From Candidatus Zipacnadia bacterium (GTDB lineage Bacteria > Armatimonadota > Zipacnadia > Zipacnadales > UBA5352), in the NCBI GenBank assembly GCA_029821635.1, contig JALGSW010000010.1, forward strand, positions 1 to 44,615: a stretch of 44,615 nucleotides of DNA, read 5' to 3'. Below are positions 8,969-33,828 of this stretch, piece by piece. The translations under genes and the position numbers were made by a program. The number at the start of each line of letters is the position of its first letter. Position 1 is the stretch's first letter. Below the pieces are notes generated by a model that was not told the origin of the DNA, did not search any database, and saw only the letters and a list, made by a program, of their open reading frames with translations.

Positions 8969-11940
8969 GCGCCTTGCGTCGCATCCTCATGCCGGTCATC
9001 GTCGCGCTGATCGCGGCCTCATCGACCTACGCCGCCGACGTCGCCCTGGTGCGGGCCACGTTCTCGCTGGAGAAGCACCCCGACGCCGGGATCGGCACCT
9101 ACTACGAAGCGGTCAAGCGCGGGCTCGATCAGAACGGCGTCGAGTACGACATCATCACCGACGAGCAGATCGTGGCGGGCTCGCTGGCGGGCTACCGGCT
9201 CGCGATCTTCCCCTTCACGATCGACACCACCCCCGAGCACACGCAGGCGATCCTCGACTACGTGGCCGGCGGCGGCAACGTCATGTGGCTCTTCTCCGTG
9301 CCCGCCCCGCTGCAGGAGATGCTCGGCCTCGAAGTGGTGACCTACCGGCGCAACGAGTATGAGGGTCAGCTTCACACGATGCAGTTCACCGACGACGCTC
9401 CGCCCGGCTTCCCCGCGCAACTGCGGCAGGAGTCGAAGAGCTGCTACGTGGCGACGGAGCTGACCGAGGGCGCGCGCGTGATCGCCGACTGGCTCGACTC
9501 CGAGGGCAAGGCAACGGGCACTCCCGCGGTCGTGATGACCGACCACTCGCTCTGGGTCGCGCACGTTTTCTGGCCGGACGCGGACACCGCCGCGCAGTAT
9601 CACCTGCTGCTGGCGACGATCGGGCACTTCGTGCCAGGCACGTGGCAGGCGGCGGTCGAGGGTGCGATCGCCGGCGGCACCACGGACACCGACTACCCGA
9701 GCTTCGAGGCGCTCGTCGCGGACGTGAGCGGCCACGAGCAAGCCGGGCCGATCGCGCGCCGAGCCGCCAAGCTGGCCGGCGAGGCGCGGGCGGCGCTTGC
9801 GCGCGAGGACTACGCCCAGGCTGTCGGCCTTGCCGGGCAGGCGCGTGACGCCGCCCAGCGCGCGGTCGCGGCAGGCTTCCCCTCGCGGCCCTACGAGTTG
9901 CGCGGTGTGTGGTCGGGGATGCCCGGCGATGACACCGACTGGGACGCGATCATGTCGGAGCTTGCGGCCGCGAACTTCAACGCGATCTTCCCGAACATGT
10001 GCACGCCCGGCGCGGCCGCCTACCCGAGCGACGTGCTGCCGCAGGTCACGGAGCGCGATCATCTGACCGAGTGCATCGCGGCCGCGCACGCGCACGGGAT
10101 CGAGGTCCATCCGTGGCGGGGCAACTGGCAGGTCTACCGCGCCGCCGAGGGCGTCGTCGATGGCTTCTTCGAGGAGGGGCGCTTCGTCGTCTCGGTGGAG
10201 CAGGCGATGGGCGAGGAGGAGCAGGATCAGCGGTACCGCTGGAGCCACCGGTGGCTCGATCCGTCCGACGAGCGCAACCGGCAGCTTGAGATCGCCGCGA
10301 TGGAGGAGATGGCGCGGCGCTTCGACGTGGATGGCATCCACTACGACTTCATGCGCTACCCGTCGAGCCGCTACTGCTACTGCGACCGCTGCCGCGAGCA
10401 GTTCCAGGAGTGGGCGCGTGTGACGGTCGAGGACTGGCCCGCCGAGTGTTGGGCGGGCGGCAAGCACCTTGCCGCCTACCGCGACTGGCGGCGGCACCTG
10501 CAGACCTCGCTGGTGGCGGAGATGCGTGAGCGGCTGGCGGCCATCGACCCCGACCTGAAGATCTCACTGGCGGCGCGCGCAAGCGTGACCGGTGCGCCGG
10601 AGAACGACGCGCAGGACTGGATCACGTGGTCGCACGAGGGCTACCTCGACTTCCTTTGCCCGATGGACTACACGGGCGACGTGGACAACTTCCGCCGCAA
10701 GCTCGCACCGCAGATGGACCTCGTCGGTGGCACGATCCCGGTCTACGCGGGCATCGGCGTTAGCCCGACGCGTTCGGACACCCCCGTGAACTTCTCGCAG
10801 CAGATTGCCCTCGCGCGCGAGCTGGGCGCCGACGGCTTCCTGCTCTTTTCGCTGACCGGCTTCTCGCGCGACATGCTGCCCGCGATCGCCGCGGGCGCGA
10901 CCGCCACGCCGGTCGATCGCATGCCCCACGCGCTGCAGTCGGCCTCCGCGCAGTTCGAGTATCCGCCCGGCGCCAATGGCGCCCCTGAGCGCACGTACGC
11001 GCCGGGCGAGGCGGTGGCGGTGACCGTGCGGCTCAACGCGACCGCGCCGGGCGTCGCGCAGATCACCGCGCAGCCGCTGGTGATGCCCGCGCGTGGCGGG
11101 GAGGCTGAGGCGCTCGCGCCCTACGCCTCGACGGACGGTCCGGCTGCCGAGCTGGCCGCGACGCTGTCGCTCGATCCGGGCATCTACTCGCTCATCGTGC
11201 GCGGCGAGGTCGTCTTCGAGGACGGCCACGAGGAACCCTTCTACCTGCGCAGCCGGCCACTGACCGTGCTCGATGAAGAAGCACTCGCGGGCCTGCTGGC
11301 CAGCCTCGCGCCGCCGAAGTTCGCGACCGATGCTCTGCACGTGGGCGTGGCCGCGGGCGGCTACGGGAGCGAGGCGATCATGCAGGCTCTCGGCGCCGCG
11401 AAGGGGATCGAGGCCGCTTCGCTGCACGGACTGACGCCCGAGTTCCTCGCGGCCTGCGACGTGCTGGTGCTGCCGCAGATGCGTCCCGGAGGCCTGAGCA
11501 TCGGCGAGGCTGAGCGCGAGGCGCTGCGGGCGTTCGTGCGTGGCGGCGGCGGGCTGCTGGTGACGCACGACGCGGTCGGCATCCGCGGCTACGAGGCGCT
11601 CTTCCCGGAGGTCGCGTCGGCCGCGGGCGGTCCCCTGCGCGAGACAGAGCTGGCGGTCGCGGCCGAGCACGCGATCACCGTCGGGCTGGGCGTCGGGCAG
11701 GCCTTCGCGCACAGCTACTACGATCACGTGCCCCTGAGCGTTGGCGAGGCGGGCACGACGCTCGTCATCGACTCGCAGGCCCAGCCGGTGATTGCCTGCG
11801 GCGGGGCGGGCGATGGACGCTACGTCGCGTGGGGGATGGCGACCGGCCTCGGCTCGGGAGACCGCGAGGTCAGGCCGCGGGGCGCGGAGCAGACGCTGCT
11901 GCTGAACGCAGTGCGGTGGCTGGGGGAGACGGGCAACTGA
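8965..11940 (+). CDS. Secreted GHL10-type glycosidase-like protein flanked by two ThuA/GATase-like domains
   Basis: 991 residues from a GTG overlapping the racemase stop; a TTG at 8974 is an alternative. Signal peptide: RRILMPVIVALIAASSTYAA. Residues about 25-215 form an amidotransferase/ThuA-like Rossmann domain (KRGLDQNGVEYDIITDEQI). Residues about 308-640 are a GHL10 (family 10-like glycosyl hydrolase) barrel: YELRGVWSGMPG at 310, HPWRGNWQVYRA, and IHYDFMRYPSSRYCYCDRC near 460, the typical GHL10 strand with a Cys-rich turn. A beta-sandwich (about 650-770) precedes a second ThuA-like domain from about 785 ending LLLNAVRWL. GHL10 proteins are thought to cleave glycans in the envelope or outside the cell; substrate unknown. 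The next gene carries a homologous C-terminal domain. Confidence 0.85.
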   Translation: MSALRRILMPVIVALIAASSTYAADVALVRATFSLEKHPDAGIGTYYEAVKRGLDQNGVEYDIITDEQIVAGSLAGYRLAIFPFTIDTTPEHTQAILDYVAGGGNVMWLFSVPAPLQEMLGLEVVTYRRNEYEGQLHTMQFTDDAPPGFPAQLRQESKSCYVATELTEGARVIADWLDSEGKATGTPAVVMTDHSLWVAHVFWPDADTAAQYHLLLATIGHFVPGTWQAAVEGAIAGGTTDTDYPSFEALVADVSGHEQAGPIARRAAKLAGEARAALAREDYAQAVGLAGQARDAAQRAVAAGFPSRPYELRGVWSGMPGDDTDWDAIMSELAAANFNAIFPNMCTPGAAAYPSDVLPQVTERDHLTECIAAAHAHGIEVHPWRGNWQVYRAAEGVVDGFFEEGRFVVSVEQAMGEEEQDQRYRWSHRWLDPSDERNRQLEIAAMEEMARRFDVDGIHYDFMRYPSSRYCYCDRCREQFQEWARVTVEDWPAECWAGGKHLAAYRDWRRHLQTSLVAEMRERLAAIDPDLKISLAARASVTGAPENDAQDWITWSHEGYLDFLCPMDYTGDVDNFRRKLAPQMDLVGGTIPVYAGIGVSPTRSDTPVNFSQQIALARELGADGFLLFSLTGFSRDMLPAIAAGATATPVDRMPHALQSASAQFEYPPGANGAPERTYAPGEAVAVTVRLNATAPGVAQITAQPLVMPARGGEAEALAPYASTDGPAAELAATLSLDPGIYSLIVRGEVVFEDGHEEPFYLRSRPLTVLDEEALAGLLASLAPPKFATDALHVGVAAGGYGSEAIMQALGAAKGIEAASLHGLTPEFLAACDVLVLPQMRPGGLSIGEAEREALRAFVRGGGGLLVTHDAVGIRGYEALFPEVASAAGGPLRETELAVAAEHAITVGLGVGQAFAHSYYDHVPLSVGEAGTTLVIDSQAQPVIACGGAGDGRYVAWGMATGLGSGDREVRPRGAEQTLLLNAVRWLGETGN

Positions 11941-11959
11941 CGGTGGGAGGTCTCTGACT

Positions 11960-14830
11960 ATGCGAACGCTCGCTGTAATCATCGCACTGCTGGCCATCGT
12001 GGCGGCGGCGCACGCCGCACCCGCCACGTATGAGGACATGATCCCGCAGCCCAAGCAGATGCGCGTGAGCAGCGCGCGCTGGTTTCTGCGCGCGGGCAGT
12101 CGGACGCTCGGGCAGATCGTCGTGCCGCCGCGCCAGCGCAAGGCCGCCATCGGCGCCGAAGAGATCAACGCGCGTCTCGCGGAGATCGGCGCGGAGGCGC
12201 TGCCGGTGACGGAGAGCGATGATCCGGCGGCGCTCCCCGAGGACGGCGTCTCGATCGTCATCACGAAATCCTACGGCAACGACCTCGCGCGGGCGATCAT
12301 CGACGAGTGCGACGTGCGAATCACGCGCGACGATCCGGGCGAGCAGGGCTACGTGATCCGCTACGTGACCTTCCGCGGCCGGCGCGTGATCTTCCTGTGC
12401 GGCAGTGACGAGCAGGGCGCGCTCTACGCGGCCGTCACCTTCCGCAATCTGCTGGAGGGCGGCGCGGAGGGCGTGGGCGCGATCAAGGCTCGCGTGCGCG
12501 ACTGGCCCGACTTCAAGTGGCGCGGCACCGGCAGCGTCATGCAGATGCGCAAGAGCTATCCCGCCTACGGGCAGACCGGCGAGGAGCTGGCCGAGGCCCT
12601 CAAGCCGCAGGTTGACTGGATGCTGCGCGCCAAGCTGAACCTGCTCGGTGACTACCTCTACGGCGGCGAAGACGCGATGGCGTGGGCGGACGCCGACTGG
12701 GTGGGGGAGCTCAACGCCTACGCGCGCGCCCGGGGGATCGTCGGCGAGGAGTATCAGAGCACCAACGTCGGCTACGATGAGCGCGACGCGAACGACCCGC
12801 GCTTCGCCGGCATGATGCACACGCGCGACCTGTTCTTCACGTGGAGCGATGATGAGCTGATCCGCAAGCGCGCGCGGGAGATCGCGCAGGTGTGGGACGA
12901 CCTGAACCTGGGCGTGGCCGTCCTGCACTGCCCCGACGGCGGCGGGCCGGTCAACCCGGAGATGTGGAACAATCGCTCCGAGGCCGACCGCGAGCGCTGG
13001 GGCGACGACCGCGCCTCCGCCGACGCGCACGTCTTCGGCATCTTCTACGAGGAGATCAAGCGCGTCGCACCTGATGTGCAGGTCGTCTTCGTGGTCTACC
13101 CCTACAGCGCGCAGTACCTCGACTGGGAGATGCTCAAGCCGCGCTACCCGGACCTCACGCGCGAGCAGTTCAACTGGGCCGGGCGCGACTACTGGGCCGA
13201 GCTGGGCCCCAAGCTCCCCGAGGACTGCGGCATCTGCGTCTGGCTGGGCGAGCCGGGCTACATGGACCGCTTCCGCGAGGCCTTCGGCGATCGGCCGATG
13301 TACTACTGGTACAAGTTCGCGAGCGGTTGGGTGGACGCGGGCTGGCTCATCACCACCGTGCGCTACATCGGCACGAACTACTACGCCAACCCCGGCGACA
13401 TCATGGCGGTGCGCATCGACCGCAACTTCCCGAACTACATCAACCGCCTGCTCGCCTGCCAGTTCGCCTGGGACACCTCCAGCGCGGGCTCGGAGGACTT
13501 CTCCGGCAACTACTACGACTTCCGCACCGACAACGATCAGCCCGAGGTGATCGTCGAGCAGTGGGGCGAGCGCGCCTGCCGGTGCATGTGGGGCGCGGAG
13601 GCGGGCGCGGTCATGCACGAGGCCTTCAACAAGGGCGTCATCCCCGCGCTGATCGTCAACCCGTCGCGGATGCTCAACGATGAGAACCGCGGCCGCCGGT
13701 TCTACGGGAAAGAGGAGCTTGTCCTCACGCCCGAGATGATGCTCAAGCAGGCCGACGGCTGCCGCGCCGCGGCGGCTGCGTTGGACACGCAGGTCGGGAG
13801 CGAGGCGCTTGCTGGGATGTCCGAGATCCAGGAGCGCATGTTTGTCTACTATCTGCGCCGCACGCACTGCCTCGCCGCCTACGCGCAGGCGCACTACCAC
13901 CTGCTGATGGCGCAGCAGGCGCTCGCGGAGGGCGACGGCGCGGCGGTCGGCGAGCAGGCCGCGGCGGGCATTGCGGCGGTGGATGACGGCCTCGCGGACA
14001 TGCAGCAGGTCCTCGCGACGACCGCCGAGATGCGCACGTACGATCCCAAGTACACGCGCCAGGCGGCAGCGGGCGTCTTCCCCGCGATCCCCGGCACGGA
14101 CGCGGACTTCCCGCGCATGCGCGAGTCGCTGGAGGCCGTCGAGCGGCGCCTGCGCGACTCGAAGCTCAGCTTCGAGCCGGTCTCGCACGAGGGCCCGGTC
14201 CGTGTGGCGATCTACGAACCGAGCGGTGATGGCGGCACCGCGATCGGCCATCAGGGCTGGCTGCTCACGCTGCAGACCGACGCGGAGATCGAAGTGGAGT
14301 TCATCGACGACCTGAGCCTGTCGAACCTCGTGAACTACGAGGTGCTGCTCTACCCGCAGTCCACGAGCGGGCGCAGTGTCAGCCGCTACGAGTACTTCGA
14401 GGTGCTGAAGCGCTACGTCGAAGAGGCCGGCGGCGGCGTGATGTTCGGCCACCACCAGGTCGGCCACGACCGCGCGGAGTTCGGGCAGGAGACGACCTTC
14501 CGGCTGATCGGCATGGGTTCGGTCGGCCGCCCGGACACGCACACGGTCGTGGTGGCGGGCGAGCATCCGATCACCGAGGGCCTCGCGGCGGGGGAGAGCT
14601 ACGATCACGTCTACTACGATCACTTCACGGTGAAGCCCGGCAAGCGCGGCGTGGCGATCCTCAAGGACCCCGGCGGTGACGCGGTGATGGTCGCGGGCGA
14701 GCAGGGCAAGGGTCGCGTGATCTACGACGGGGAGATCGTGCTGAGCGACTCCTCCGGCGCCGTCGCGGCCGAGGGCGCCGAGCGCGACGTGCTGCTCAGC
14801 GCGATCCGCTGGCTGGCGCAGAGGAAGTAG
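11960..14830 (+). CDS. Secreted GH20b/GH84-like glycosidase-like protein with C-terminal ThuA-like domain
   Basis: 956 residues from the ATG at 11960; GGAGG at 11945-11949 is its ribosome site. Signal peptide: RTLAVIIALLAIVAAAHA. After it comes ATYEDMIPQPKQMRV, the start of a GH20-domain-2-like module with GYVIRYVTFRGRRVIFLCGSD and GALYAAVTFRNLL. The core starts at VRDWPDFKWRG (about 179), as in GH84/GH20-type hexosaminidases. GH84 enzymes use a paired Asp-Asp; here the corresponding region seems to read LHCPDGGGPVNP with a single Asp, so hexosaminidase activity is uncertain. A helical region (600-720) is followed by a ThuA-like domain (about 745-956) ending LLSAIRWLAQRK, homologous to that of the upstream protein. 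Likely role: processing of amino-sugar glycans outside the cytoplasm. Confidence 0.8.
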   Translation: MRTLAVIIALLAIVAAAHAAPATYEDMIPQPKQMRVSSARWFLRAGSRTLGQIVVPPRQRKAAIGAEEINARLAEIGAEALPVTESDDPAALPEDGVSIVITKSYGNDLARAIIDECDVRITRDDPGEQGYVIRYVTFRGRRVIFLCGSDEQGALYAAVTFRNLLEGGAEGVGAIKARVRDWPDFKWRGTGSVMQMRKSYPAYGQTGEELAEALKPQVDWMLRAKLNLLGDYLYGGEDAMAWADADWVGELNAYARARGIVGEEYQSTNVGYDERDANDPRFAGMMHTRDLFFTWSDDELIRKRAREIAQVWDDLNLGVAVLHCPDGGGPVNPEMWNNRSEADRERWGDDRASADAHVFGIFYEEIKRVAPDVQVVFVVYPYSAQYLDWEMLKPRYPDLTREQFNWAGRDYWAELGPKLPEDCGICVWLGEPGYMDRFREAFGDRPMYYWYKFASGWVDAGWLITTVRYIGTNYYANPGDIMAVRIDRNFPNYINRLLACQFAWDTSSAGSEDFSGNYYDFRTDNDQPEVIVEQWGERACRCMWGAEAGAVMHEAFNKGVIPALIVNPSRMLNDENRGRRFYGKEELVLTPEMMLKQADGCRAAAAALDTQVGSEALAGMSEIQERMFVYYLRRTHCLAAYAQAHYHLLMAQQALAEGDGAAVGEQAAAGIAAVDDGLADMQQVLATTAEMRTYDPKYTRQAAAGVFPAIPGTDADFPRMRESLEAVERRLRDSKLSFEPVSHEGPVRVAIYEPSGDGGTAIGHQGWLLTLQTDAEIEVEFIDDLSLSNLVNYEVLLYPQSTSGRSVSRYEYFEVLKRYVEEAGGGVMFGHHQVGHDRAEFGQETTFRLIGMGSVGRPDTHTVVVAGEHPITEGLAAGESYDHVYYDHFTVKPGKRGVAILKDPGGDAVMVAGEQGKGRVIYDGEIVLSDSSGAVAAEGAERDVLLSAIRWLAQRK

Positions 14831-14841
14831 GGGGGAGCACG

Positions 14842-15645
14842 CTGGCGATCCTCGCGACGGTCCTCGGCATCGTGCTGCTCATCGCGGCCTGGCGCGTCGG
14901 GCCGTGGCTGTCCGCGAGCGACCGACGCTTCGCGGTCGCGGTGATCGCGTGCCTGCTGGTGATGGGCGCGTGGTTCGCGGGCTTCGAGCTTACCTACGTC
15001 GCCCTGCGCCTGATCCCGTGGGATGACGCGATCTTCTTCGACCGCCTGCCACTCTACGTGGCGATCGTGCTGCTGCTGGGCCTCTGCATCCAGCGCCTGG
15101 AGCGCCGGACGATGCGCCTGCTCGTCGGCGTGATCGTGGCGATCTTCAGCCTCTACGCAGCCGCCGAGATCGCGGCGCCGATCCCTCTGGCGCTCTTCGC
15201 GCAGCAGCTTTCCGCTCGCACCGACGGCCCCGCTGAGGAGATCCAGTCCACGGGCTGGTCATGCGGCGCGGCGGCGCTGGCGTGGGCGGTGCGCCTGCAT
15301 GGCATCCCGGCCTCCGAGCGGCAGATGGCCGAGCTGGCCGTCACCGCGCCGCTGCGCGGCACCAGCACCCGCGGGATGCTGCGCGGGCTGCATCGCGTCG
15401 GCCTCGGCGCACACGCGATCAAGCCGGGCTCGTGGGAGGACGTGCTCGCGGCGCCAAAGCCGGCACTGGTCGGCTGGAAGCTCAGCGCCACCGTCGGGCA
15501 CTCAGTGGTGGTGCTGAGCATCGACGAGCAGCGAGACACGGTTCGCATCGGCGACCCGCTCGCGGGCGAGACTGAGTACACGCGCGAGGAGTTCCTGGAG
15601 GGCTGGATGGGCGATCTGATTGTGATCGAGGGTTCCGTGCGGTAG
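14842..15645 (+). CDS. Membrane protein with C39-like cysteine peptidase domain
   Basis: No ATG is available. A GTG at 14872 would cut the first membrane helix in half. The in-frame CTG at 14842 restores it (AILATVLGIVLLIAAW) and has a GGGGAG four bases upstream, so I prefer CTG (267 residues). Three or so hydrophobic helices fill residues 1-120. The C-terminal domain is C39-like: STGWSCGAAALAWA with the nucleophile Cys at 141, GHSVVVLSI with His at 220 and IGDPLAGE with Asp at 238, a complete Cys-His-Asp set. Stand-alone C39-like domains occur in many proteins of unknown target; the bacteriocin exporter type also has an ABC transporter, which is absent here. It lies 11 bases after the GH84-like gene, so it is probably in the same transcript. 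Confidence 0.78.
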   Translation: MAILATVLGIVLLIAAWRVGPWLSASDRRFAVAVIACLLVMGAWFAGFELTYVALRLIPWDDAIFFDRLPLYVAIVLLLGLCIQRLERRTMRLLVGVIVAIFSLYAAAEIAAPIPLALFAQQLSARTDGPAEEIQSTGWSCGAAALAWAVRLHGIPASERQMAELAVTAPLRGTSTRGMLRGLHRVGLGAHAIKPGSWEDVLAAPKPALVGWKLSATVGHSVVVLSIDEQRDTVRIGDPLAGETEYTREEFLEGWMGDLIVIEGSVR

Positions 15646-15660
15646 GAGGGGCCGCCCGCC

Positions 15661-15739
15661 GTTCTCCCCCCTCTCCCGCTTGAAATCGCGCCAGCGATTT
15701 CCAGGGAGAGGGGGGCCGGGGGGGTGAGGTAGTCGTTCC
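15661..15739 (+). repeat. Palindromic repeat, family A copy 1 (CCCTCTCCC / GGGAGAGGG)
   Basis: Constant outer arms (CCCCCTCTCCCGCTT and CCAGGGAGAGGGGG) enclose an inner stem GAAATCGC (15682-15689) and GCGATTTC (15694-15701) with a 4-base loop; a GGTGAGGTAGTCGTTCC tail follows. It sits between the C39-like and DUF2330 genes and could act as a transcript end. Related copies: 38075-38151, 39773-39877 and 39942-40053. Confidence 0.85.
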
Positions 15740-15814
15740 CGCCGCCATGGAACCACCGCCTCTCCTCATCCGTCAGACCCGGCAGTGCAGCATACTGACG
15801 CGGGGAGGCGTTCC

Positions 15815-16990
15815 ATGCGCATTTCCGTGATCTGCCTGGCGCTCCTGACGCTCGCCTGTGCCCCCATGCTCGCCGATGGCGGCTTCTTCCCGACGCCCGC
15901 GGGTGTCGCCGAGACCGCCGACCAGCGCGCGCTCATCATCGACCACGGTGACGCCGAAACGCTCGTGGTGCAGACCGCCTACGATGGCGACGCGTCAGGC
16001 TTCGCGTGGGTCATCCCCGTGCCGACGCAGATCGTCGGCGCGAGCGCGGTCGGCACCGCCGACCCGCAGGTTTTCTCCACGCTGCACAACCTCAGTGCGC
16101 CGCGCTACTACTCCGGCCTGGAGGGCAGCACGGGCGTGTGCGGCTGCTCAGGCTCGGGCGGGGCGGGCGGTGACGGGTCGCCGAACATGGGTGGCGTCAC
16201 CGTCTGGGACAGCTTCGAGGTAGATGGCTACGACGTGGCGGTGCTCTCGGCGGGCGAGTCCGGCGACCTCGCGACGTGGCTCAACGAGAATGGCTACGCG
16301 CTCCCGGCGGGACACAACGACGTGCTGGACTACTACGTCGCCAAGCGCTGGTTCTTCGTCGCGTTCAAGATCGCCCCGAGCGACGAGCGCGTTGGCAGCG
16401 GCGATGGCGAGGAGTTCCGGCCGATCGCGCTGACCTTCGCCACCGATGAGCTGGTCTTCCCGATGTGCATCTCGCGCGTGAGCACCAGCGACCGCGTTGA
16501 GGTGCTGCTCTACGTGCTCAGCGAGCATCGCATCCGCTCGAACAACTACCCGACGCGCAGCATCCAGGCGCGTCGCACCTGGAACGGCGGCGACTTCGAG
16601 GCGACCTACGACGGCTGGTTCGAGGAGACCATCGCGGATGCGGGCGGCAAGGCGCTGGTCGTGGAGTTCGCGGGCGTGTTCCCGTCGTGGTGGGCCACCG
16701 CGCCGCCCTTCGACGCGCTGCTCGATCCGGCGGACGAGTACTTCGTGACGCGCCTGCGCACGCGGCTGACGCCCGCGCAGATGACTGAGGACGTGGTGAT
16801 GGTCGCGGCGGCCAATGACGATCCGCTCGAGGTGGTCGTCGGCAGTCAGCTCGCGGCGCTGCGGGGGCAGATCGCGTTCGCTGCGCTGCTGCTGGCGAGC
16901 GTGCAGGGGGTGGCGCTGCGGCGCTGGCGCTTCGGGCCGCGCCTTGCGGCCGCGACGGCGCTGCTCGGGATCTTCATGGTGCTGCTGTGA
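15815..16990 (+). CDS. DUF2330 family membrane-anchored extracytoplasmic protein
   Basis: 391 residues from the ATG at 15815, which has GGGGAGG six bases upstream; the in-frame codons before it have no ribosome site. Signal peptide: RISVICLALLTLACAPMLA; the Cys is not in a good lipobox, so ordinary cleavage before DGGFFPTPAG is likelier. The mature start is diagnostic of DUF2330: DGGFFP, AETADQRALIIDHGDAETLV, GFAWVIPVPTQIV. A Cys-rich Gly loop (TGVCGCSGSGGAGGDG) follows near residue 110. The C terminus has two hydrophobic stretches (IAFAALLLASVQGVALRRW and AATALLGIFMVLL), anchoring it. Function is unknown for the family. It shares an almost identical 16-base ribosome region with the gene at 38181. 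Confidence 0.87.
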   Translation: MRISVICLALLTLACAPMLADGGFFPTPAGVAETADQRALIIDHGDAETLVVQTAYDGDASGFAWVIPVPTQIVGASAVGTADPQVFSTLHNLSAPRYYSGLEGSTGVCGCSGSGGAGGDGSPNMGGVTVWDSFEVDGYDVAVLSAGESGDLATWLNENGYALPAGHNDVLDYYVAKRWFFVAFKIAPSDERVGSGDGEEFRPIALTFATDELVFPMCISRVSTSDRVEVLLYVLSEHRIRSNNYPTRSIQARRTWNGGDFEATYDGWFEETIADAGGKALVVEFAGVFPSWWATAPPFDALLDPADEYFVTRLRTRLTPAQMTEDVVMVAAANDDPLEVVVGSQLAALRGQIAFAALLLASVQGVALRRWRFGPRLAAATALLGIFMVLL

Positions 16991-17093
16991 GGCATCGGGG
17001 TCGTTCGTGGCGCAGGCTTCCCAGCCTGCGGTCGTTGTCGTGCGGAACGGCCGACGCATCCAAACGACAGGATGCGTCGCTCCAAACGACGAG
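16991..17093. repeat. Convergent gap filled by two palindromic repeats
   Basis: The gap between two convergent genes consists almost wholly of repeats. 17001-17040 is a GGCTTCCAGCC-family copy with stem GCAGGCT/AGCCTGC. 17050-17087 is a 38-base element with the stem CGACGCATCC/GGATGCGTCG, found again inverted and identical at 21728-21765. Two adjacent hairpins at a convergent junction could serve as a bidirectional terminator. Confidence 0.8.
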
Positions 17094-19037
17094 CTACCCC
17101 TCGGGCATGAACCTCGCGGGGATCACGTCTCCGTCCCAGGCCAGTTCCGGCTTCGGCTGCCAGTCCACGTCGAACCAGCCGCCGAACACGTTCGCCTCGG
17201 TGTCGCCTACGGTGTAGCGCGTGCTGTCGAAGACAATGAAGTCCGGCAACATGTCGTGCTTGTGGTTGACCGACAGCCGCCGCCCGTAGAACTCGCCTGA
17301 GTAGATCAGCACGTAGCGGTCCGGCTGCTCAGGGTTCGGGTAGCAGAGCACGAGCCCGAGCTGCGGGCCCTCGAGAACCTTCCCGGGCACTTCGTAGCGA
17401 TGGTCGCCGATCGTGATCGGCAGCCGGTCCGCGATGCGCGCGAGCACCGAGTTCGTCTCGGGCGTGCCGAAGAGCACCAGGTTCATCGCGCGCGCCTGCT
17501 CGGCCGTCAGCTCCTCGTCGGTGCACACGCGCGGCTGGCCGTCGGCGAAGCGGTCCCACTCGTCCACCCATGTCCCGACCTTCTCCGCGAGCGCAAGGTC
17601 CTGCGCGTCGCTGCCGGCCGTCCCCTGCACCACGATGAAGGGCGTGTTGAAGACATCCTCCGCCGGGCCGCACAGCCCGTTGCGCTTGAGCGGCGGCCAG
17701 TCCTGGGTGGGTGCCGCCTCGATCTCGATCGGCAGGAGGCCGTCCGCGGCGGTCACGCTGTGCTGCTCGCCATTGATCGTGATGCGGAACTGGTCGTGCA
17801 CGGGCTCGCCCGCCTGCAGCGGGCAGGTCGCGAGGTCGATGGTGAGCGCCGCCACGTTGTCGCAGGTGATGTCCAGGCGGCCGCCGTCATCGGCTACGGT
17901 CGCGTCCACGGTCGCGGGTGTGCCCCACGTCTTCATGCGGTCGATCGTCAGCCAGTGCGCGCGGTTGTAGCGCAGCGAGAAGCAGCGGAAGGTCACGCGC
18001 GATGGTCGCCGGTCCAGCGTGAAGTCCTTGCTCCAGCTCCACGCGTTCTCATAGCAGGGCGTGTCCCAGTAGATGTAGTGGCTCGCGCCGGGGAACTCGT
18101 AGTACTTCACGGGCATGCCGAGCCCCTGCAGCTTCTCGACCATCGAGCGCGATTCGATCACCGGGATGAGGCTGTCGAACTCCCCGTGCTGCACAAAGAA
18201 GTGCTGCCCGCGGGCGCTTTGCGCCATCTCCTCCGCGTTGTCCCACGCGACCAGGAAGCGCTTGAAGGGCGTCATCGCCTCCGGGTCCCAGCGCCACCAG
18301 CGGAACATGTCGGTCTGCCCGGAGATCGGGGTGGTGGCGGCGAAGAAGCCCGGCCTGCGCAGCGCCATGTTCCACGCACCCATGCCGCCCATCGACACGC
18401 CGGAGAGGCAGATGCGGTCGGCGTCGATGCTGAACTGAGCGCGCGTGTGCTCGATCGCTTCGTAGATGTCCACTTCGCCGACGCCCTGGAAGTCCGTGTT
18501 GCGCCGGCCGTAGGGGATCAGGAGGATGCAGCCGTTCTGCTCGGCGATGTCGCACACGTCGTCGCCCAGCACCCACGGGTCCGCCACCGTGATGCTCGGC
18601 ACGTAGCCGTGCAGGAACACGATCAGCGGCCACTCGCGGTCGGGCGTGTAGGCTTCGGGCAGGTGCACGTAGTAGGGCTGCACGGTGCCATCGTTCCGGG
18701 CGACGTACGCGAGTTCGCTGAGCGTACCTTTCGGCGGGGAGTACTTCTCGCCGCGGCGCGCCATCTCCAGCAGGCTCATCCCCGCCGCGATCTCGCTGGA
18801 CGCATCGCCGCCCATGTAGAAGCCCCCGCCCTCGAGCAGCCGCGCCTTCTTGAGCTTGAGCTTCGCGAGGGGAAGGTCGGTCGCCCATGCTTCGGCGTTG
18901 GTCGAGCGATCGGTCCCGGGGCCCTCGGCGAGCGCGATGGCGGCGGCGAGGTCGTCGGCCGTGGGCTGCTCCTGCGCGAGCGCGGGGACGAGAGTGCTGC
19001 CGATCAGAAGCGACGCGACGATGAGCGCGTACCTCAC
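17094..19037 (-). CDS. Secreted alpha/beta-hydrolase esterase (prolyl-oligopeptidase/PHB-depolymerase-like)
   Basis: 647 residues from a GTG at 19037; a GGAG lies nine bases upstream and the signal peptide (RYALIVASLLIGSTLVPALAQ) begins right there. The longer open frame to 19241 would read through a terminator hairpin and a repeat, so it is rejected. The hydrolase fold has VFLHGYVPS (oxyanion region, about 140-148), nucleophile Ser215 in CLSGVSMGGMGAWN, likely acid Asp288 in VQHGEFDSLIPV and His320 in FPGASHYIYW: a full catalytic triad. Residues beyond about 350 form an accessory domain of unknown role. Proteins of this type are ester-cleaving enzymes that often accompany glycosidases, for example on acylated polysaccharides; the substrate is not evident. 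Confidence 0.87.
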   Translation of the reverse strand: MRYALIVASLLIGSTLVPALAQEQPTADDLAAAIALAEGPGTDRSTNAEAWATDLPLAKLKLKKARLLEGGGFYMGGDASSEIAAGMSLLEMARRGEKYSPPKGTLSELAYVARNDGTVQPYYVHLPEAYTPDREWPLIVFLHGYVPSITVADPWVLGDDVCDIAEQNGCILLIPYGRRNTDFQGVGEVDIYEAIEHTRAQFSIDADRICLSGVSMGGMGAWNMALRRPGFFAATTPISGQTDMFRWWRWDPEAMTPFKRFLVAWDNAEEMAQSARGQHFFVQHGEFDSLIPVIESRSMVEKLQGLGMPVKYYEFPGASHYIYWDTPCYENAWSWSKDFTLDRRPSRVTFRCFSLRYNRAHWLTIDRMKTWGTPATVDATVADDGGRLDITCDNVAALTIDLATCPLQAGEPVHDQFRITINGEQHSVTAADGLLPIEIEAAPTQDWPPLKRNGLCGPAEDVFNTPFIVVQGTAGSDAQDLALAEKVGTWVDEWDRFADGQPRVCTDEELTAEQARAMNLVLFGTPETNSVLARIADRLPITIGDHRYEVPGKVLEGPQLGLVLCYPNPEQPDRYVLIYSGEFYGRRLSVNHKHDMLPDFIVFDSTRYTVGDTEANVFGGWFDVDWQPKPELAWDGDVIPARFMPEG

Positions 19038-24899: not shown

Positions 24900-25514
24900 T
24901 CAGCGTCCGAGCTTCGCATGGCAGTCGCTGCAGAACTCCAGGTTCGTCTGATCGAGCTGCAGCAGCACGTTCGCGAACTGCATGATGCAGCCGGGCGTGT
25001 CGCAGTGGCGCAGGCCGAACGTGTGCCCAAGCTCGTGCACCGCGATCTTCACCGCGCGCTCCAGCAACAGGTCGCGATCGGGCTCGTTGTGCCCCCAGAA
25101 CTCCGGGCGCAGGCGCGCGAGGCTCATCACCGCGCGGTCGCCGGGAAGCTGCGCCTGGCCGAAGACGAAGTTGAGCTTGCGCGCGTAGAGGTCGGCTTCG
25201 GTGAGGCCGAGCGTGCGGTCGTGCTCATCCGCGGGCGCGGGGAGGCCGTCCCTGAGCGTCGCCGCGAGGTACTGCCCGCGCGTCTCGTCGAGGGCCTCGG
25301 TGGGCAGGGGGAGCGGCTCGCCATCGGCGACGCTGACGGGCACCCCGTAGACGCCCTGCACGCCCTCGGCGATGTCCTCGACAAGCTCGCGATCAGCGCC
25401 CTCGAACAGGACGATCGTGATCTGCTCCAGCCCCTCAGTGCCCGGAACGTCAGGCGAGCAGCCGGTGAGCGTAACGGCGGCCAGCAGGGCGAGCAGGCTC
25501 AGTCGCTGGATCAT
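24900..25514 (-). CDS. Archaemetzincin-type zinc metalloprotease, lipoprotein
   Basis: 204 residues. Lipoprotein signal: LSLLALLAAVTLTGC with Cys19 in a canonical LTGC lipobox, so it should be anchored outside the cytoplasmic membrane. The C-terminal half carries the full archaemetzincin signature HExxHxxGxxHC-x4-CxM...CxxC: HELGHTFGLRHC (His160, His164, His170 and catalytic Glu161, Cys171), CIM at 176-178 and CSDC at 195-198. The His set binds the catalytic zinc; the four Cys would bind a second, structural zinc. The ATG overlaps the stop of the upstream WD40 lipoprotein gene by 3-4 bases (ATGA). The N-terminal 100 residues include RDGLPAPADEHDRTLGLTEADLYA, typical for the family. A membrane-tethered archaemetzincin is less usual than cytoplasmic forms. 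Confidence 0.9.
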   Translation of the reverse strand: MIQRLSLLALLAAVTLTGCSPDVPGTEGLEQITIVLFEGADRELVEDIAEGVQGVYGVPVSVADGEPLPLPTEALDETRGQYLAATLRDGLPAPADEHDRTLGLTEADLYARKLNFVFGQAQLPGDRAVMSLARLRPEFWGHNEPDRDLLLERAVKIAVHELGHTFGLRHCDTPGCIMQFANVLLQLDQTNLEFCSDCHAKLGR

Positions 25515-27784: not shown

Positions 27785-30415
27785 CTACTCGCCCTCAATC
27801 AGCGCCCGCACCGCCGGTTCGAGCTCGGCCAGCGCCTCATCCGGGTCGCGCTCGCCCGTCAGGACCGGGTGCAGGTGCCGCTGCAGCAGCTCAGACACGC
27901 GCATGTAGTTGGGGATGTCATGCCGCTTGCGCGCGCTGCGCAAGAGCTCGTAGACCGTGGGGTAGTGCGGGTTGAACGCCAGCACCTCCGGGTCGCGGTA
28001 GAGCGAGGTGAGCGTGGGCAGCGGCCCGCCGCGCATCGCCCGCTCCTTCTGCACCTCGGGGCTGGCCATGAACTGGATGAACTCGCCCGCCGCCATCGGC
28101 GCCCGCGCGTTGACGGGGATGCCGAAGTGCCAGCCACCGAGGAAGCTGTAGCCGCGGTCGCCGCGCGGACCGTGCGGCGGCCCGGCGATCCCCACGCGAC
28201 CCGCCAGCGGTGAGTCCGGCTGATTGACCTCCTGCAGCACGCTCGGCAGCATGTAGAGGAAGAGCGTCCGCCCCTCGATGAAGTCCTGCTGCGGCTCCAG
28301 ACCGCCCGCGTAGGAGGTGACGTTGCGCGGCGTGATGCCGTGTTCGTGGATCAGCGCGTGCATGAAGCGCAGACTCTCGCGCGCGGCGTCGGAGTCAAGT
28401 CCGCAGCTCCCGTCCGGGTTCACGATCTGCCCGCCATTGCTCCAGAGGTTCGTGAGGAACGAGCTGCTCAGGCCCTCGTAGAGGTAGCCGGGGAACTGGA
28501 AGCCCATCAGCTCATCGTCGCCCTCATCCTTGAGGACCTTCGCTGCCTGCTCGATCAGCTCATCCCACGTCGCAGGCGCGGCAGAGAAGCCGTGCTCCTC
28601 CAGCAGGTCGCGGCGGTAGAGTAGTGTGCCGCAGACCGCGATCGCGGGCACGGCGTAGAGGCCGTCGGCGCCGCGTGCGGGCTCGACGACCTCCGGGAGG
28701 TGCTGCTCCCACTCGGACGAGCTGAGCAGGCTGTCCACGCCACGCAGCCGCCCGGTCTCCACGATCTCGGGCGTCCAGTACAGGCACATCGGCGCGACGG
28801 ACAGATGCGTGCTCTCCGCGCGCAGAGCGGTGCGGACGGTCGCGAGCACCTCGTCGGGGTTGTACGGGATGTTCAGCGAGACCGGCTGGACGTTGGGGTG
28901 GATCTGCGAGAAGCGCTCCAGCAGCTCGGAGTTGAACTGCTTGTCGAATTCGTTGAAGCTGCGGACCGAAAGCGCGATCTGCGTGGCGCGCGCGGCGCCC
29001 GCCATGAGACCCTCAGCGCCCTCAAAGCGGTTCTGCACCTCGATCCCGCGGTTCTGAATGACGTAGCGCCAGATCCCGGTGTCGTGCCCGGAGCCGCGCA
29101 TCTTCAGCACGGACACCGCGCGCTGAATCTCGCTCTCAAGCTCCAGATACTTCATCAGGATGATGCCGTCCACGATGATCGAGAGGTGTTCGCCGGAGAC
29201 GTGCGTCTGCCCGAAGAGCTCGGGCACCTCGGTCGTCACGAGGCTGGTGATGCCACGGCTGTCGAGCATGCTGACCAGCTCGTAGACCGCTTCGCGCACG
29301 CTCTCCTGGTTCGGGAAGGCCATGTCGAGGTCGGTGATGCTGTCGAAGACGAGGCGCTTTGCGCCGAGGCGGTCGATCTCTTGCATCACGTCGAGCAGTA
29401 GCTTCTCGAAGCGCACGGTGGTCGGGAACTCGTGGATGATCGTGGCCTTGTCTTCCCTGAGCAGCTCGCCCAGGCCCAGCCCGAAGCCGTCGGCCTGACA
29501 GATGAGCTTGTTGGGCGACTCCTCGAAGGTCACGTAGACGCCGGGCTCGCCATTGCGCGCGCCCTCGCAGAGGAACTCCAGCCCGAGCGTGGTCTTGCCC
29601 ACGCCCGCGCTGCCCGCCACCAGCGTCGCACTGCCGGTGAGCAGGCCGCCGTGGACCATGCGGTCGAGGCCCGCGACGCCGGTGGACATGCGCCCGACCG
29701 AGCAGGCCTCGCCCAAGCGCTGGGCCTGGGGCTCCCAGCGCGGGTAAACGACCGGCCCCTCGCTGCATATCTCGAAGCCGTGGCGGCCCAGGCGGTGGGC
29801 CTGCCCGCGCGACTTCGCCACCTCGATGAACCGGCGCCGGCGGGAGCCGCCGATCATCTGATTGTCGAGGCGGATGACCGTGTCGCACAGGTACTCCTCG
29901 AACGGGACGTCGCGGATCTCCGTGCTCTCGAGTTCCTTGGTGACGATGGTGGTGAGGCCCGCGCGCTTGAGGCCGTTGGTCATCGAGTAGAACAGGGCGC
30001 GCTGCTCCCTCGGTTCGTCACAGATCTGCGCGAGATGCGAGGCGCTGTCGATCAGCACGCGCCGCGCGCCCATCTCCGAGACGAGCCGGTCCACCATGCC
30101 CCCGACCTCGCTGAGCTGGTCGAGGAACACGTCCGGTGAGGTGCACATGATGTGCAGGAGGCCGTTACGCTCGAGCTCCTCGAGGTCCCAGCCGAACTGC
30201 GCGGCATCCTCGATCATCTGCTCGGGGAACTGCTCGAAGGTGATCGCGATGCCCGGATCCTCGGCGTGGAGTGCGCCGTGGTGGAGGAAGCGCAGGCCAA
30301 CGGTGGTCTTGCCGGTGCCCGGAATGCCCTCAAGCAGCGTACACGATCCCCGACGCAGTCCACCGCCGAGTATCTGGTCAAGTCCCGCAATGCCGGTGCA
30401 TGCCAGTTCAGACAT
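27785..30415 (-). CDS. Double KaiC/RecA-like ATPase fused to a cytoplasmic solute-binding-protein domain
   Basis: 876 residues from the ATG at 30415, set by GGGGAG eight bases upstream. Domain 1 (1-235): TGIAGLDQILGGGL, Walker A GIPGTGKTT (30-38), catalytic pair Glu61-Gln62 where KaiC has Glu-Glu, Walker B Asp123. Domain 2 (240-465): TGVAGLDRMVHGGLL, Walker A GSAGVGKTT (268-276), intact Glu298-Glu299, Walker B Asp358. Residues about 478-876 are a family 1 sugar-type solute-binding protein: FSQIHPNVQPVSL, YAVPAIAVCGTLLYRRDLL, APATWDELIEQAAKVL and GAGEFIQFMASPEVQKE-like helices. There is no signal peptide and no membrane helix between domains, so the binding domain must be cytoplasmic. The fusion joins exactly at domain ends within an undisturbed frame. 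It overlaps the wHTH gene by 8 bases. Likely role: ligand-responsive ATPase acting on a regulator. Confidence 0.88.
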   Translation of the reverse strand: MSELACTGIAGLDQILGGGLRRGSCTLLEGIPGTGKTTVGLRFLHHGALHAEDPGIAITFEQFPEQMIEDAAQFGWDLEELERNGLLHIMCTSPDVFLDQLSEVGGMVDRLVSEMGARRVLIDSASHLAQICDEPREQRALFYSMTNGLKRAGLTTIVTKELESTEIRDVPFEEYLCDTVIRLDNQMIGGSRRRRFIEVAKSRGQAHRLGRHGFEICSEGPVVYPRWEPQAQRLGEACSVGRMSTGVAGLDRMVHGGLLTGSATLVAGSAGVGKTTLGLEFLCEGARNGEPGVYVTFEESPNKLICQADGFGLGLGELLREDKATIIHEFPTTVRFEKLLLDVMQEIDRLGAKRLVFDSITDLDMAFPNQESVREAVYELVSMLDSRGITSLVTTEVPELFGQTHVSGEHLSIIVDGIILMKYLELESEIQRAVSVLKMRGSGHDTGIWRYVIQNRGIEVQNRFEGAEGLMAGAARATQIALSVRSFNEFDKQFNSELLERFSQIHPNVQPVSLNIPYNPDEVLATVRTALRAESTHLSVAPMCLYWTPEIVETGRLRGVDSLLSSSEWEQHLPEVVEPARGADGLYAVPAIAVCGTLLYRRDLLEEHGFSAAPATWDELIEQAAKVLKDEGDDELMGFQFPGYLYEGLSSSFLTNLWSNGGQIVNPDGSCGLDSDAARESLRFMHALIHEHGITPRNVTSYAGGLEPQQDFIEGRTLFLYMLPSVLQEVNQPDSPLAGRVGIAGPPHGPRGDRGYSFLGGWHFGIPVNARAPMAAGEFIQFMASPEVQKERAMRGGPLPTLTSLYRDPEVLAFNPHYPTVYELLRSARKRHDIPNYMRVSELLQRHLHPVLTGERDPDEALAELEPAVRALIEGE

Positions 30416-30806
30416 CGAGCCCACTCCCCGGTGCGTTCGGCGTTGCCGGCTGAGCGCCACGCTCCCGGAGGCGGCGCTGCACGAGCATCAGAACAATCTC
30501 CTTGCGGGCGTCCGGGTCCTCGTGGTAGGCGTCGCTGAGGCGGCAGAGCGTGCGCCACACCTCCGGGGACGCGGAGAGTGCGAAGACCCGGTAGCGACCA
30601 TCTCCCCGGGCCAGCACCTCCAGATAGCCCTGCTCTGACATCCGCTGCAGGGCCGGCTCGATGTCTCCGAGCGGCCGGTGCGTGCGCAGCGCGATGCCGG
30701 AGGCCGTGTCGAACGCTCGCGGGTTCCCCTGGAAGAACAGCGCCACATCCAGGCCCACCAGGTCCTGCGCGGTCTCCTCAATGAATTTGCGCACGTGTTC
30801 GTCCAT
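30408..30806 (-). CDS. Winged-helix DNA-binding protein, partner of the KaiC/SBP fusion
   Basis: 132 residues from the ATG at 30806, or 135 from an in-frame ATG at 30815; neither has a strong ribosome site. The fold is a small winged helix: LDVALFFQGNPRAFDTASGIALRTHR (helices 1-2), LGDIEPALQRMSEQGYLEVLA (recognition region) and GDGRYRVFAL as the wing. A helical tail follows (VWRTLCRLSDAYHEDPDARK). Its last codons overlap the start of the KaiC fusion gene, so the two are made together in a fixed ratio. It probably binds DNA under control of the ATPase. The divergent promoter region just upstream (30873-30913) has a dyad that is a candidate site for it. Confidence 0.75.
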   Translation of the reverse strand: MDEHVRKFIEETAQDLVGLDVALFFQGNPRAFDTASGIALRTHRPLGDIEPALQRMSEQGYLEVLARGDGRYRVFALSASPEVWRTLCRLSDAYHEDPDARKEIVLMLVQRRLRERGAQPATPNAPGSGLDV

Positions 30807-30872
30807 GGCGACCATCCACAGACGGCATCGTTCAGGCGACGCAGTCGCCCTTACCCGTGATAACCCCGCTTC

Positions 30873-30913: not shown

Positions 30914-31110
30914 GAGTGCCAAACGGACTCCGCGCGTGAGCCTGTCGCCTCATCCGTCACGTCCGATGGCGGTACCAACACCGATACCCCCGCCCCGGTT
31001 CTTTCCGGCCCATGCTTCCCAGCGGGATCCTGCCGGGAGGTCGCGGCGCACCCACAGCCGAACCTTGGTCTCGCAGGCTCGACACACCGACCACCGCGAG
31101 GAGTGGCAGC

Positions 31111-33828
31111 ATGTCCGAGGCGAACGACACGAACGTCCCCCGCCCGGAGCACCCGCGACCCGACTTCCACCGCGGCTTGCGATCGGGCGTTGACTGGCTG
31201 AACCTCAACGGCGAGTGGCAGTTCGAGTTCGACCCGCAGGACGTGGGTGTCCGGGAGGGCCGGCAGGACGCCGGCGCCGAACGCTTCCCACGCACCATCC
31301 GAGTGCCCTTCTGTTGGGAGAGCCACCTTGCGTGGGGCACACAGGAGCGCGCGGGCAACGATGACTGGTTCTCCACCGAGGCGTACCTCGACCCGGCATC
31401 GGTCACGAAGGACAACTACCGCGAGGCCCCGCGCCACACCATCGGCTGGTACCGCCGCGAGTTCACCGTGCCGGACGGCTGGGCGGGCCGGCGCGTCTGG
31501 CTGAACGTCGGCGCGGCCGACTGGGATCTGCGCGCGTGGGTCAACGGCGTCGAGGTCGGCGCGCAGGAGAGCGGCTACCTGCCGGTCGCGCTGGACATAA
31601 CCGGCTCGCTGCGCGAGGCGCTGCAGCCTGGCGTGAACACGCTCGTGATCCGCGTGCACGACCCCGAGGACCACTCGCACCAGCCCATCGGCAAGCAGGT
31701 GAGCAACTGGTACACGCGCACCAGCGGGATCTGGCAGAGCGTCTGGCTGGAGCCGCGCGCCGACGCGCACATCGCGAACGTGCTCGTGCAGCCCTGCCTG
31801 GCGGACGAGCTTGCGACGCTGACCGTACGCGTCCACGCTCCCGAGGGCGCCGAGGGGCTGGCGGTCGGGACCGAGCTGCGCGCGTCCACCGGCCGCGCCG
31901 TCGCAGGCATCGAAGCCGCGCCCATCGGCGACGATGGCGAGGTGCGGATCGCGCACGAGATCGAGCGGCCGATCGCCTGGACGCCCGACGCTCCGCACCT
32001 GTACCGCGCGCGAGTGTGCCTGCTGCGCGATGGCGCGGTCATCGACGAGGTGCACACGCAATTCGGGATGCGCGACATCGATACGGGGCCGCTCGGGGAG
32101 GACGGCCCGACGTACGTACGTCTCAACGGGAAGCCGGTCTACCTGCGCGGAGCGCTCGATCAGAGCTTCCACCCGGCGGGCGTCTACACGCACCCGACCG
32201 ACGCCGCGATCAAGCGCGACTTCGTGCTGGCGAAGCGCGCGGGGCTGAACTTCCTGCGCCTGCACATCAAGACGCCCGACCCTCGCTACTGCTACTGGGC
32301 CGACCGCTGCGGCGTCCTGCTGATGTGCGACATGCCCGGCGTGGGCTACGAGGGCTACTCGGAGGTCGCGAAGCAGCGCTGGGAGCGCAACGCGTGGGGG
32401 CAGATCGAGCGCGACTTCAACCACCCGAGCATCTTCTCGTGGTGCCTGTTCAACGAGACGTGGGGTCTGGGTGGGCGCGCCTACGCCGACTCGGCGGAGC
32501 GGCAGGCGTGGGTGCGGGAGTGCTACGAGACGGCGAAGCGCCTCGACCCCACGCGGCTGATCGAGGACAACTCCGCGTGCCTGAACGATCACGTGGTCAC
32601 GGACATCAATTCGTGGCACTTCTATATGAACGACTATGAGCAGGCGCGCGAGCACATCGAGGAGGTCGTCGCGCGCGCCTACGAGGGCTCGCGCTTCAAC
32701 TTCGTCGGCGGGAACCTGCAGGCCGGGGAGCCGCTTCTCAACAGCGAGTACGGCGGCATCGGCGCGCGCATGGGCGACCTCGACGTGTCCTGGTGCCTGC
32801 GCTTCCTCACGAACGAGCTGCGCAAGTACGAGAAGGTCTGCGGCTATGTCTACACTGAGCTGACCGACATCGAGTGGGAGTACAACGGGCTCTACAACTA
32901 CGACCGCTCGCCGAAGGAGTTCGGCTACGATCCCGCGCTGCTGCTGGGCGAGGAGTTCGTGGGCTTCGACGCGCCGCCCGCGCGGATGGTGCTGCCCGGC
33001 GCGAGCGTGCGGGTGCCGGTCTTCCTGCGGCCATCGACGGACGCGGCGTCGCTGGAGCGGCGCCTGCGCTGGACCGCGACGTTCATCGACCGCGTCGGGC
33101 ACGAGGAAGTCATCGCGCGCCGGCGGTCGCTGCAGCACACCAAGCGGGGAGAGCGCTACGTCGAGGTCGCCCTGCCGAGGCGGCCGGGGCTGGTGCGGCT
33201 GGAGGCTACGATCTGCGATGAGAAGGGCAGGCCGGCGGCGCTGAACTTCTGCTTCTTCGAGGTCGTCGGCAATACCCTCCCCCCGGCGCGCAGCCACGCG
33301 CACATCCTCGCTCTTCCCGTGGGCGCGGGCGAGGCGGTCTTCGATGCGGAACCCGAGCGTGGCCATGTCCTCGACGAGGTCCATCTCATCGCGGGACGAG
33401 GCGACGGAAACATCACCTGGACGTTCGATCTGCCCGATGACCTGGACCGCGCGACCGTCACGGAAGTCTCATTGTTGGTCGAACTGTCCAGCACGCGACC
33501 GGGTGCGCCGCAGACGAGCGCCGACCGCTGGCCCTCCACCGCGGCGATCGAGATCGGCGGGCAGCCGGCCGCGATCGTGCACCTCGCCGACCAGCCGGCC
33601 GACTCGCGCGGCGCGCTCTCGCACATGAACGGCTTCCGCGGGCGCTACGGGCAGCTCGTGAGTGCGGCCCTGTCCGGCGAGGCAGCGTTGGCGGCGGTGG
33701 ACGGTGAGCGCCTCGAGGTGCGCATCAGCTCCCGCGACGCTGTGCCCGGCCGTGGCGGACTGACCGTCTACGGCTCACGCGCCGGGCGCTATCCGTGCGA
33801 CGTAACGCTGCGAATCGCCCACAGATAA
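31111..33828 (+). CDS. Glycoside hydrolase family 2 enzyme (beta-galactosidase/beta-glucuronidase-like)
   Basis: 905 residues from the ATG at 31111 with GAGGAG seven bases upstream; the frame is open 99 bases further but without a ribosome site. There is no signal peptide, so it acts in the cytoplasm on imported oligosaccharides. GH2 order is clear: sugar-binding jelly roll (DWLNLNGEWQFEFDP, GWYRREFTVPDGWAGRRVWL), immunoglobulin-like domain, then the barrel with VYLRGALDQSFHP, acid/base Glu449 in WCLFNETWGL and nucleophile Glu546 in LLNSEYGG. Residues after about 620 are accessory beta domains. The exact glycosidic specificity cannot be read from sequence. It is divergent from the wHTH/KaiC-SBP pair, which may regulate it. 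Confidence 0.92.
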   Translation: MSEANDTNVPRPEHPRPDFHRGLRSGVDWLNLNGEWQFEFDPQDVGVREGRQDAGAERFPRTIRVPFCWESHLAWGTQERAGNDDWFSTEAYLDPASVTKDNYREAPRHTIGWYRREFTVPDGWAGRRVWLNVGAADWDLRAWVNGVEVGAQESGYLPVALDITGSLREALQPGVNTLVIRVHDPEDHSHQPIGKQVSNWYTRTSGIWQSVWLEPRADAHIANVLVQPCLADELATLTVRVHAPEGAEGLAVGTELRASTGRAVAGIEAAPIGDDGEVRIAHEIERPIAWTPDAPHLYRARVCLLRDGAVIDEVHTQFGMRDIDTGPLGEDGPTYVRLNGKPVYLRGALDQSFHPAGVYTHPTDAAIKRDFVLAKRAGLNFLRLHIKTPDPRYCYWADRCGVLLMCDMPGVGYEGYSEVAKQRWERNAWGQIERDFNHPSIFSWCLFNETWGLGGRAYADSAERQAWVRECYETAKRLDPTRLIEDNSACLNDHVVTDINSWHFYMNDYEQAREHIEEVVARAYEGSRFNFVGGNLQAGEPLLNSEYGGIGARMGDLDVSWCLRFLTNELRKYEKVCGYVYTELTDIEWEYNGLYNYDRSPKEFGYDPALLLGEEFVGFDAPPARMVLPGASVRVPVFLRPSTDAASLERRLRWTATFIDRVGHEEVIARRRSLQHTKRGERYVEVALPRRPGLVRLEATICDEKGRPAALNFCFFEVVGNTLPPARSHAHILALPVGAGEAVFDAEPERGHVLDEVHLIAGRGDGNITWTFDLPDDLDRATVTEVSLLVELSSTRPGAPQTSADRWPSTAAIEIGGQPAAIVHLADQPADSRGALSHMNGFRGRYGQLVSAALSGEAALAAVDGERLEVRISSRDAVPGRGGLTVYGSRAGRYPCDVTLRIAHR

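Follow-up and report, generated by a model that had tools for sequence, protein, structure and literature searches.

Bacterial KaiC proteins, according to one survey, are almost always around 500 amino acids in length, with an overall maximum of 741 (PMC5520375), and in that from Rhodobacter a C-terminal coiled coil shifts with phosphorylation state (PMC10076222), a precedent for the model proposed below. In archaea, KaiC domains occur joined to input or output domains (PMC5847659), and papers that cite Makarova, Galperin and Koonin (2017) treat archaeal KaiC-like ATPases as signalling hubs. Within a window of 44,615 nucleotides (the whole stretch of DNA analysed) from a Candidatus Zipacnadia bacterium, we describe a gene that joins two KaiC domains to a solute-binding protein (SBP) domain, and which overlaps a gene for a small winged helix-turn-helix (wHTH) protein. 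Like the archaeal hubs, it fuses a KaiC ATPase to an input/output domain; it differs in being bacterial, in its double domain with intact ATPase motifs, in having an SBP as the input, and in its conserved wHTH gene partner. With the KaiC proteins of cyanobacteria and Rhodobacter it shares both full-length ATPase domains, the Walker A, Glu and Asp-Ser motifs, a serine equivalent to S431 and the fold, but carries an SBP of 400 amino acids in place of their C-terminal tail or coiled coil. The use of an SBP fold as a cytoplasmic sensor has a parallel in SgrR of E. coli, in which a DNA-binding domain is joined to an SBP-like domain and which, unlike the protein considered here, is a single-chain transcription factor without an ATPase. 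The role of SgrR is in regulating sugar-phosphate stress (PMC4021124). In a literature search that covered mostly openly accessible papers, we found no account of a KaiC-SBP protein, of KaiC in Armatimonadota, or of a conserved bacterial wHTH-KaiC pair.

The fusion gene occupies positions 27785..30415 of the window on the minus strand, with its ATG at 30415 and the stop codon within these coordinates, and encodes 876 amino acids in a frame of 876 codons with zero internal stops. Pfam places KaiC (PF06745) on the protein twice (E 4.7e-104; 347.2 bits against a cut-off of 26.6), and SBP_bac_1 (PF01547, 5.3e-24) and SBP_bac_8 (PF13416, 2.9e-22) on its C-terminal part, where the SBP match spans both lobes (86.2 against 26 bits, positions 7-307 of 307); each domain scores far beyond its curated cut-off. 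Sequence matches in the PDB agree: residues 1-490 match KaiC, and the remainder matches MalE3, the trehalose/maltose-binding protein TMBP, SmoF and an alpha-glycoside binding protein from Thermus. The original prediction of a single reading frame holding two KaiC domains and then a complete family 1 SBP is therefore borne out by Pfam and by the frame itself, as is the similarity of the C-terminal 400 or so residues to binding proteins; the SBP had been placed from about residue 478, and the Pfam match runs from ~481 to 875 (27791..28975, minus strand). As the SBP is internal to the chain there is no signal peptide, again as first proposed, and no membrane-spanning segment was found by hydropathy (best 19-residue value 1.28). 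Lying C-terminal to a cytosolic ATPase, and with no hydrophobic segment, the domain thus lacks the features of the extracytoplasmic SBP of an ABC importer. An AlphaFold model of the single chain, built on a 21-sequence alignment, has a KaiC part that resembles KaiC subunits (TM ~0.75 by target length), and a pTM of 0.49, such that the placement of the SBP relative to the KaiC part is not reliable.

Both halves are under purifying selection, with dN/dS, relative to the nearest orthologue, of ~0.16 for KaiC and ~0.20 for the SBP, and mean identity across 20 aligned fusions is equal, at 62% each, for the first KaiC domain, the second and the SBP. A frameshift or misassembly at codons 465-480, which would have undone the prediction, is ruled out, as the junction is kept in all 20; nor is it an assembly artefact, because the fusion is present in 23 genomes.

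KaiC domain I (residues ~6-232; 29720..30400) was delimited by Pfam, matches to KaiC in the PDB and fold, and KaiC domain II (residues ~242-465; 29021..29692) by the first two of these. Their Walker A motifs lie exactly where originally claimed, at residues 30-38 (GIPGTGKTT, 30302..30328) and 268-276 (GSAGVGKTT, 29588..29614), all on the minus strand, and the catalytic motifs of both domains are intact, K36, T37, E61, K274, T275 and E299 being invariant in the 20 sequences. It had also been suggested that asymmetric pairs, Glu61-Gln62 in domain I (30230..30235, minus strand) and Glu298-Glu299 in domain II (29519..29524, minus strand), set a regulatory ATPase beside an active one. The window sequence does carry these FEQ and FEE pairs, but residue 62 is Gln in 13 of the 20 fusions and Glu in 7, and residue 298 is Glu in 18 and Gln in 2, so the asymmetry marks part of the family and not the system; as a conserved design it is ruled out by these counts. 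Ser412 (29180..29182, minus strand), the S431 equivalent by alignment to KaiC in the PDB, is invariant among the 20. Elsewhere, a 619-amino acid KaiC (L149, 1020-2879, minus strand) carries a cupin-like C-terminal tail, possibly a further small-molecule input on KaiC, and genes of another KaiC subfamily from the same order (L144-L147) are followed by two small ORFs of ~110 and ~100 amino acids without a clear family match.

The SBP domain is closest to alpha-glycoside binding proteins of the CUT1 type, and has the fold of the trehalose/maltose-binding protein. With CUT1 carbohydrate-binding proteins (TMBP, 1eu8; MalE3, 6dtq; a T. thermophilus protein, 6j9w; SmoF, 7nbz) it shares both lobes and equivalents of W295 and R364; unlike them it is cytoplasmic and fused to an ATPase. 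The sugar contacts of TMBP, which we take to be D70, Y121, D123, W257, Y259, W295 and R364 in its own numbering, were placed on the fusion through alignment to solved binding proteins, and five of the seven are replaced: Asp70 by Cys544 (28784..28786, minus strand; Cys in 20/20), Tyr121 by Ile, Asp123 by Leu or Val, Trp257 by Leu723 (19/20) and Tyr259 by Ser. Trp295 (W762) and Arg364 (R831) are kept and invariant, as is G761. The earlier label of a ‘sugar-type’ binding domain therefore holds for the fold but not for most of the mapped contacts. Pocket-equivalent sites are nonetheless conserved above the SBP average (0.88 against 0.69, permutation p 0.011), a pattern compatible with a retained pocket for a different ligand, although no proof of binding. 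Given that most of the sugar contacts have been swapped for other conserved residues, the ligand is probably something other than an ordinary alpha-glucoside.

The wHTH partner gene (30408..30806, minus strand) encodes 132 amino acids from an ATG at 30806, with an alternative start at 30815; it stops at 30408 and the KaiC frame starts at 30415, giving the 8-base overlap already reported. AlphaFold models the protein as a winged helix (mean pLDDT 91), for which the nearest solved folds are MarR-type DNA-binding regulators, at a TM of only ~0.5 and a best E of 1.6e-3. No Pfam family scores above its cut-off (best MarR_2, 13.2 against 27 bits), and the lectin matches returned by a sequence search for solved relatives are spread over short repeats and meaningless. 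The MarR-type matches make DNA binding a candidate function; the protein is acidic (net charge -1 to -9) and its recognition helix mostly neutral to acidic (-3 to +1), which together argue against simple DNA binding; aligned partners retain invariant Arg41 and Arg44 and a conserved wing Arg71. Comparison of the stretches in front of the wHTH genes revealed no shared operator, and the GGCGAC-N3-GTCGCC palindrome of the window is not common to the others in that form.

Related wHTH domains occur in several other settings. One forms the N-terminus of soluble histidine kinases, of the PAS type (L109, L111, L112) and a further one (L113), and of a GAF-PAS-guanylate cyclase (L108). In several Armatimonadota families, a protein with an N-terminal MerR and a C-terminal wHTH domain is encoded directly upstream of a KaiC of ~400-480 amino acids (L151, L152, L158, L159), with the MerR domain confirmed by Pfam in the first two. 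At L104 a wHTH gene is followed by a histidine kinase gene; at L156 (G213:C400, 1478-5434) genes for a GAF-GAF-PAS-HisKA-HATPase histidine kinase, a wHTH protein and a KaiC overlap or adjoin one another, a direct genomic link of histidine-kinase signalling to the wHTH-KaiC pair.

The fusion was found in 23 of 291 Armatimonadota genomes, all from the class of the window (Zipacnadia/WS1) and from two orders within it. Its orthologues, those named being from Candidatus Zipacnadia and WS1 metagenome-assembled genomes, are 48-84% identical and without stops, two of the 23 being split by contig ends. One pattern scan beyond Armatimonadota, of a kind suited to close relatives, matched only this phylum. 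The wHTH neighbour recurs, preceding the fusion in all 20 aligned loci and standing directly upstream in 21/21 once the SBP-less KaiC of genome G290 is added. In the KaiC tree, this protein and the fusions form one clade (97/96) with G290 nested among the fusions (88/93); its KaiC frame, with its own wHTH alongside, stops near where the junction would be, away from the ends of a 92-kb contig. Judged from the sequence, G290 is thus a clean loss of the SBP with the wHTH-KaiC pair kept. In other classes of Armatimonadota, too, KaiC genes that lack the SBP have a wHTH-type ORF immediately upstream (L030, L032, L033, L154, L155, L156, and L029, the last known by profile match); a manual comparison of listed KaiC and wHTH positions puts the number of neighbouring pairs of this kind at 19, from 18 genomes, several of them with MerR-wHTH proteins.

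These SBP-less pairs, together with G290, identify the SBP as a lineage-specific input added to a wHTH-KaiC core. The most economical reading would be that the core is older, that the SBP was gained once in the class, and that it was lost again at least once. A recent origin from a resident transporter SBP was considered and set aside, there being no close relative in the class, where the nearest free SBPs are ~22-33% identical to that of the fusion, with one 105-residue stretch at 40%. The wHTH gene is also present without any KaiC-SBP in G261 and in several reduced genomes of the order, and its survival alone, with the loss of the SBP in G290, implies that the wHTH/KaiC-SBP unit is dispensable. 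The idea of a ‘one-operon’ device consequently stands in so far as the fusion is tied to a conserved wHTH gene, but wHTH-KaiC forms its core, to which the SBP was added later.

Drawing these observations together, we propose a speculative model, to which we would give roughly even chances, of a cytoplasmic switch built on a KaiC ring, which the ligand-binding domain gates and the wHTH protein reads. The two KaiC domains would assemble into a KaiC-type ring, with the SBP following the second ATPase domain, in the place taken by regulatory tails in other KaiCs. The SBP would open and close around an intracellular small molecule, and its occupancy would alter ATP turnover by the ring, and possibly phosphorylation of Ser412; the co-encoded wHTH protein would then read the state of the ring and relay it, either by controlling transcription or through signalling of the two-component type. 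We infer each of these steps, from ring assembly and ligand binding, through coupling to the ATPase and contact between the two proteins, to output. Control of the wHTH protein by the state of the ATPase, as originally envisaged, may apply to the pair, yet some genomes keep the wHTH but have no KaiC-SBP, and some histidine kinases begin with related domains.

Other arrangements of the same parts can be imagined, and the SBP might no longer bind a ligand, serving the KaiC ring instead in assembly or as a spacer. The loss of canonical pocket residues would suit such a role, in particular that of Asp70, since work describing the sugar contacts of LpqY implicates the equivalent position in lobe closure (PMC7949145), as would the fact that G290 does without the SBP; both lobes are however intact in sequence, and the substitutes are themselves conserved (C544, L723) beside the invariant W762, G761 and R831, so that we regard a mere spacer as improbable. 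Less credible still is a Kai-type circadian or ‘hourglass’ clock with an added metabolic input. The CI-CII layout, the Walker motifs and the invariant S431 equivalent are what such a clock would have, and kinase activity is possible in full-length KaiCs without KaiA or KaiB (PMC5520375). Saying this, and unlike cyanobacterial and Rhodobacter KaiC, the fusions have no equivalent of T432, residue 413 being Ile or Val in 20/20, such that the Ser431/Thr432 phosphosite pair is absent; the E318 equivalent is Gln in two, and the protein scores below the cut-off of the circ_KaiC equivalog TIGR02655 (275.8 against 546.25 bits). No KaiB match was found in the genome of the window (G000, 87.6% complete), and KaiB exceeds its cut-off in 3 of 46 genomes of the class, in all three adjoining other KaiC genes; a Kai clock with KaiB is thus unsupported.

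The remaining alternatives concern the output. A glycoside hydrolase family 2 gene (GH2; 31012..33828, plus strand) diverges from the pair, part of a setting in which many putative glycan-use genes (GHL10-like, GH2, GH123, DUF4838) and DUF1559 pilin-like secreted proteins are spread over 8989-42406, and in which a putative lipoprotein with an archaemetzincin-like M54 peptidase domain (24900-25514, minus strand), adjoining a WD40-type beta-propeller gene, lies downstream of the fusion. Of 21 loci, 12 have a divergent GH2 gene beside the pair and 5 have GH123-type genes; the GH2 neighbour hints at carbohydrate use. With the sugar-type SBP fold, this could make the system a classical regulator in one-component style, the wHTH being a DNA-binding repressor of the divergent GH2 and glycan-use genes, and KaiC-SBP its sugar-responsive co-regulator. 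We doubt this strongly, given that the pair is retained where GH2 is missing (L041, L042, L043, L044, L048), ruling it out as an obligate target, that the sugar contacts are mostly replaced, and that the wHTH genes share no operator that we could find. A more serious contender, although still unlikely in our view, is that the wHTH is an adaptor that binds no DNA and connects the KaiC ring with signalling through histidine kinases or cyclic nucleotides, with the SBP as input. The wHTH-headed kinases and cyclase, the gene strings of L156 and L104, the receiver-domain gene that follows the fusion at L048 and the acidity of the wHTH all speak for this; against it stand the MarR-type fold matches, the retained arginines, the clear MerR DNA-binding domain borne by the KaiC partner in L151-type loci, and the window itself, where no histidine kinase adjoins the pair. 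At L048 (G246, 8227-17266), the receiver-domain gene behind the wHTH/KaiC-SBP pair is itself followed by an MCP-like gene, another receiver and another KaiC. For the ligand-gated ring that we prefer, output is accordingly the main uncertainty: the resemblance to the MarR fold and the relatives fused to MerR point to transcription, and the acidity, lack of a conserved operator and histidine-kinase relatives to an adaptor.

More tentatively, and with a degree of doubt, the two-gene wHTH-KaiC modules may amount to a class of signal transduction of their own in bacteria, with a KaiC ring that takes the place of a histidine kinase and turns ligand binding by an intracellular SBP into control of a wHTH or MerR-wHTH effector, and with inputs that would be interchangeable across Armatimonadota. 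The Zipacnadia fusion itself is predicted to be, probably, an internal nutrient or metabolite sensor, and a variant on the known theme of KaiC as a signalling hub. KaiC-like ATPases have been proposed as hubs for which few inputs and readouts are known; here, neighbouring genes encode an input domain, the ATPase and a candidate output protein, and natural variants exist with the SBP, with the SBP lost (G290), with the wHTH alone and with a MerR-wHTH partner, which makes the gating and readout of a KaiC ring testable with just two proteins.
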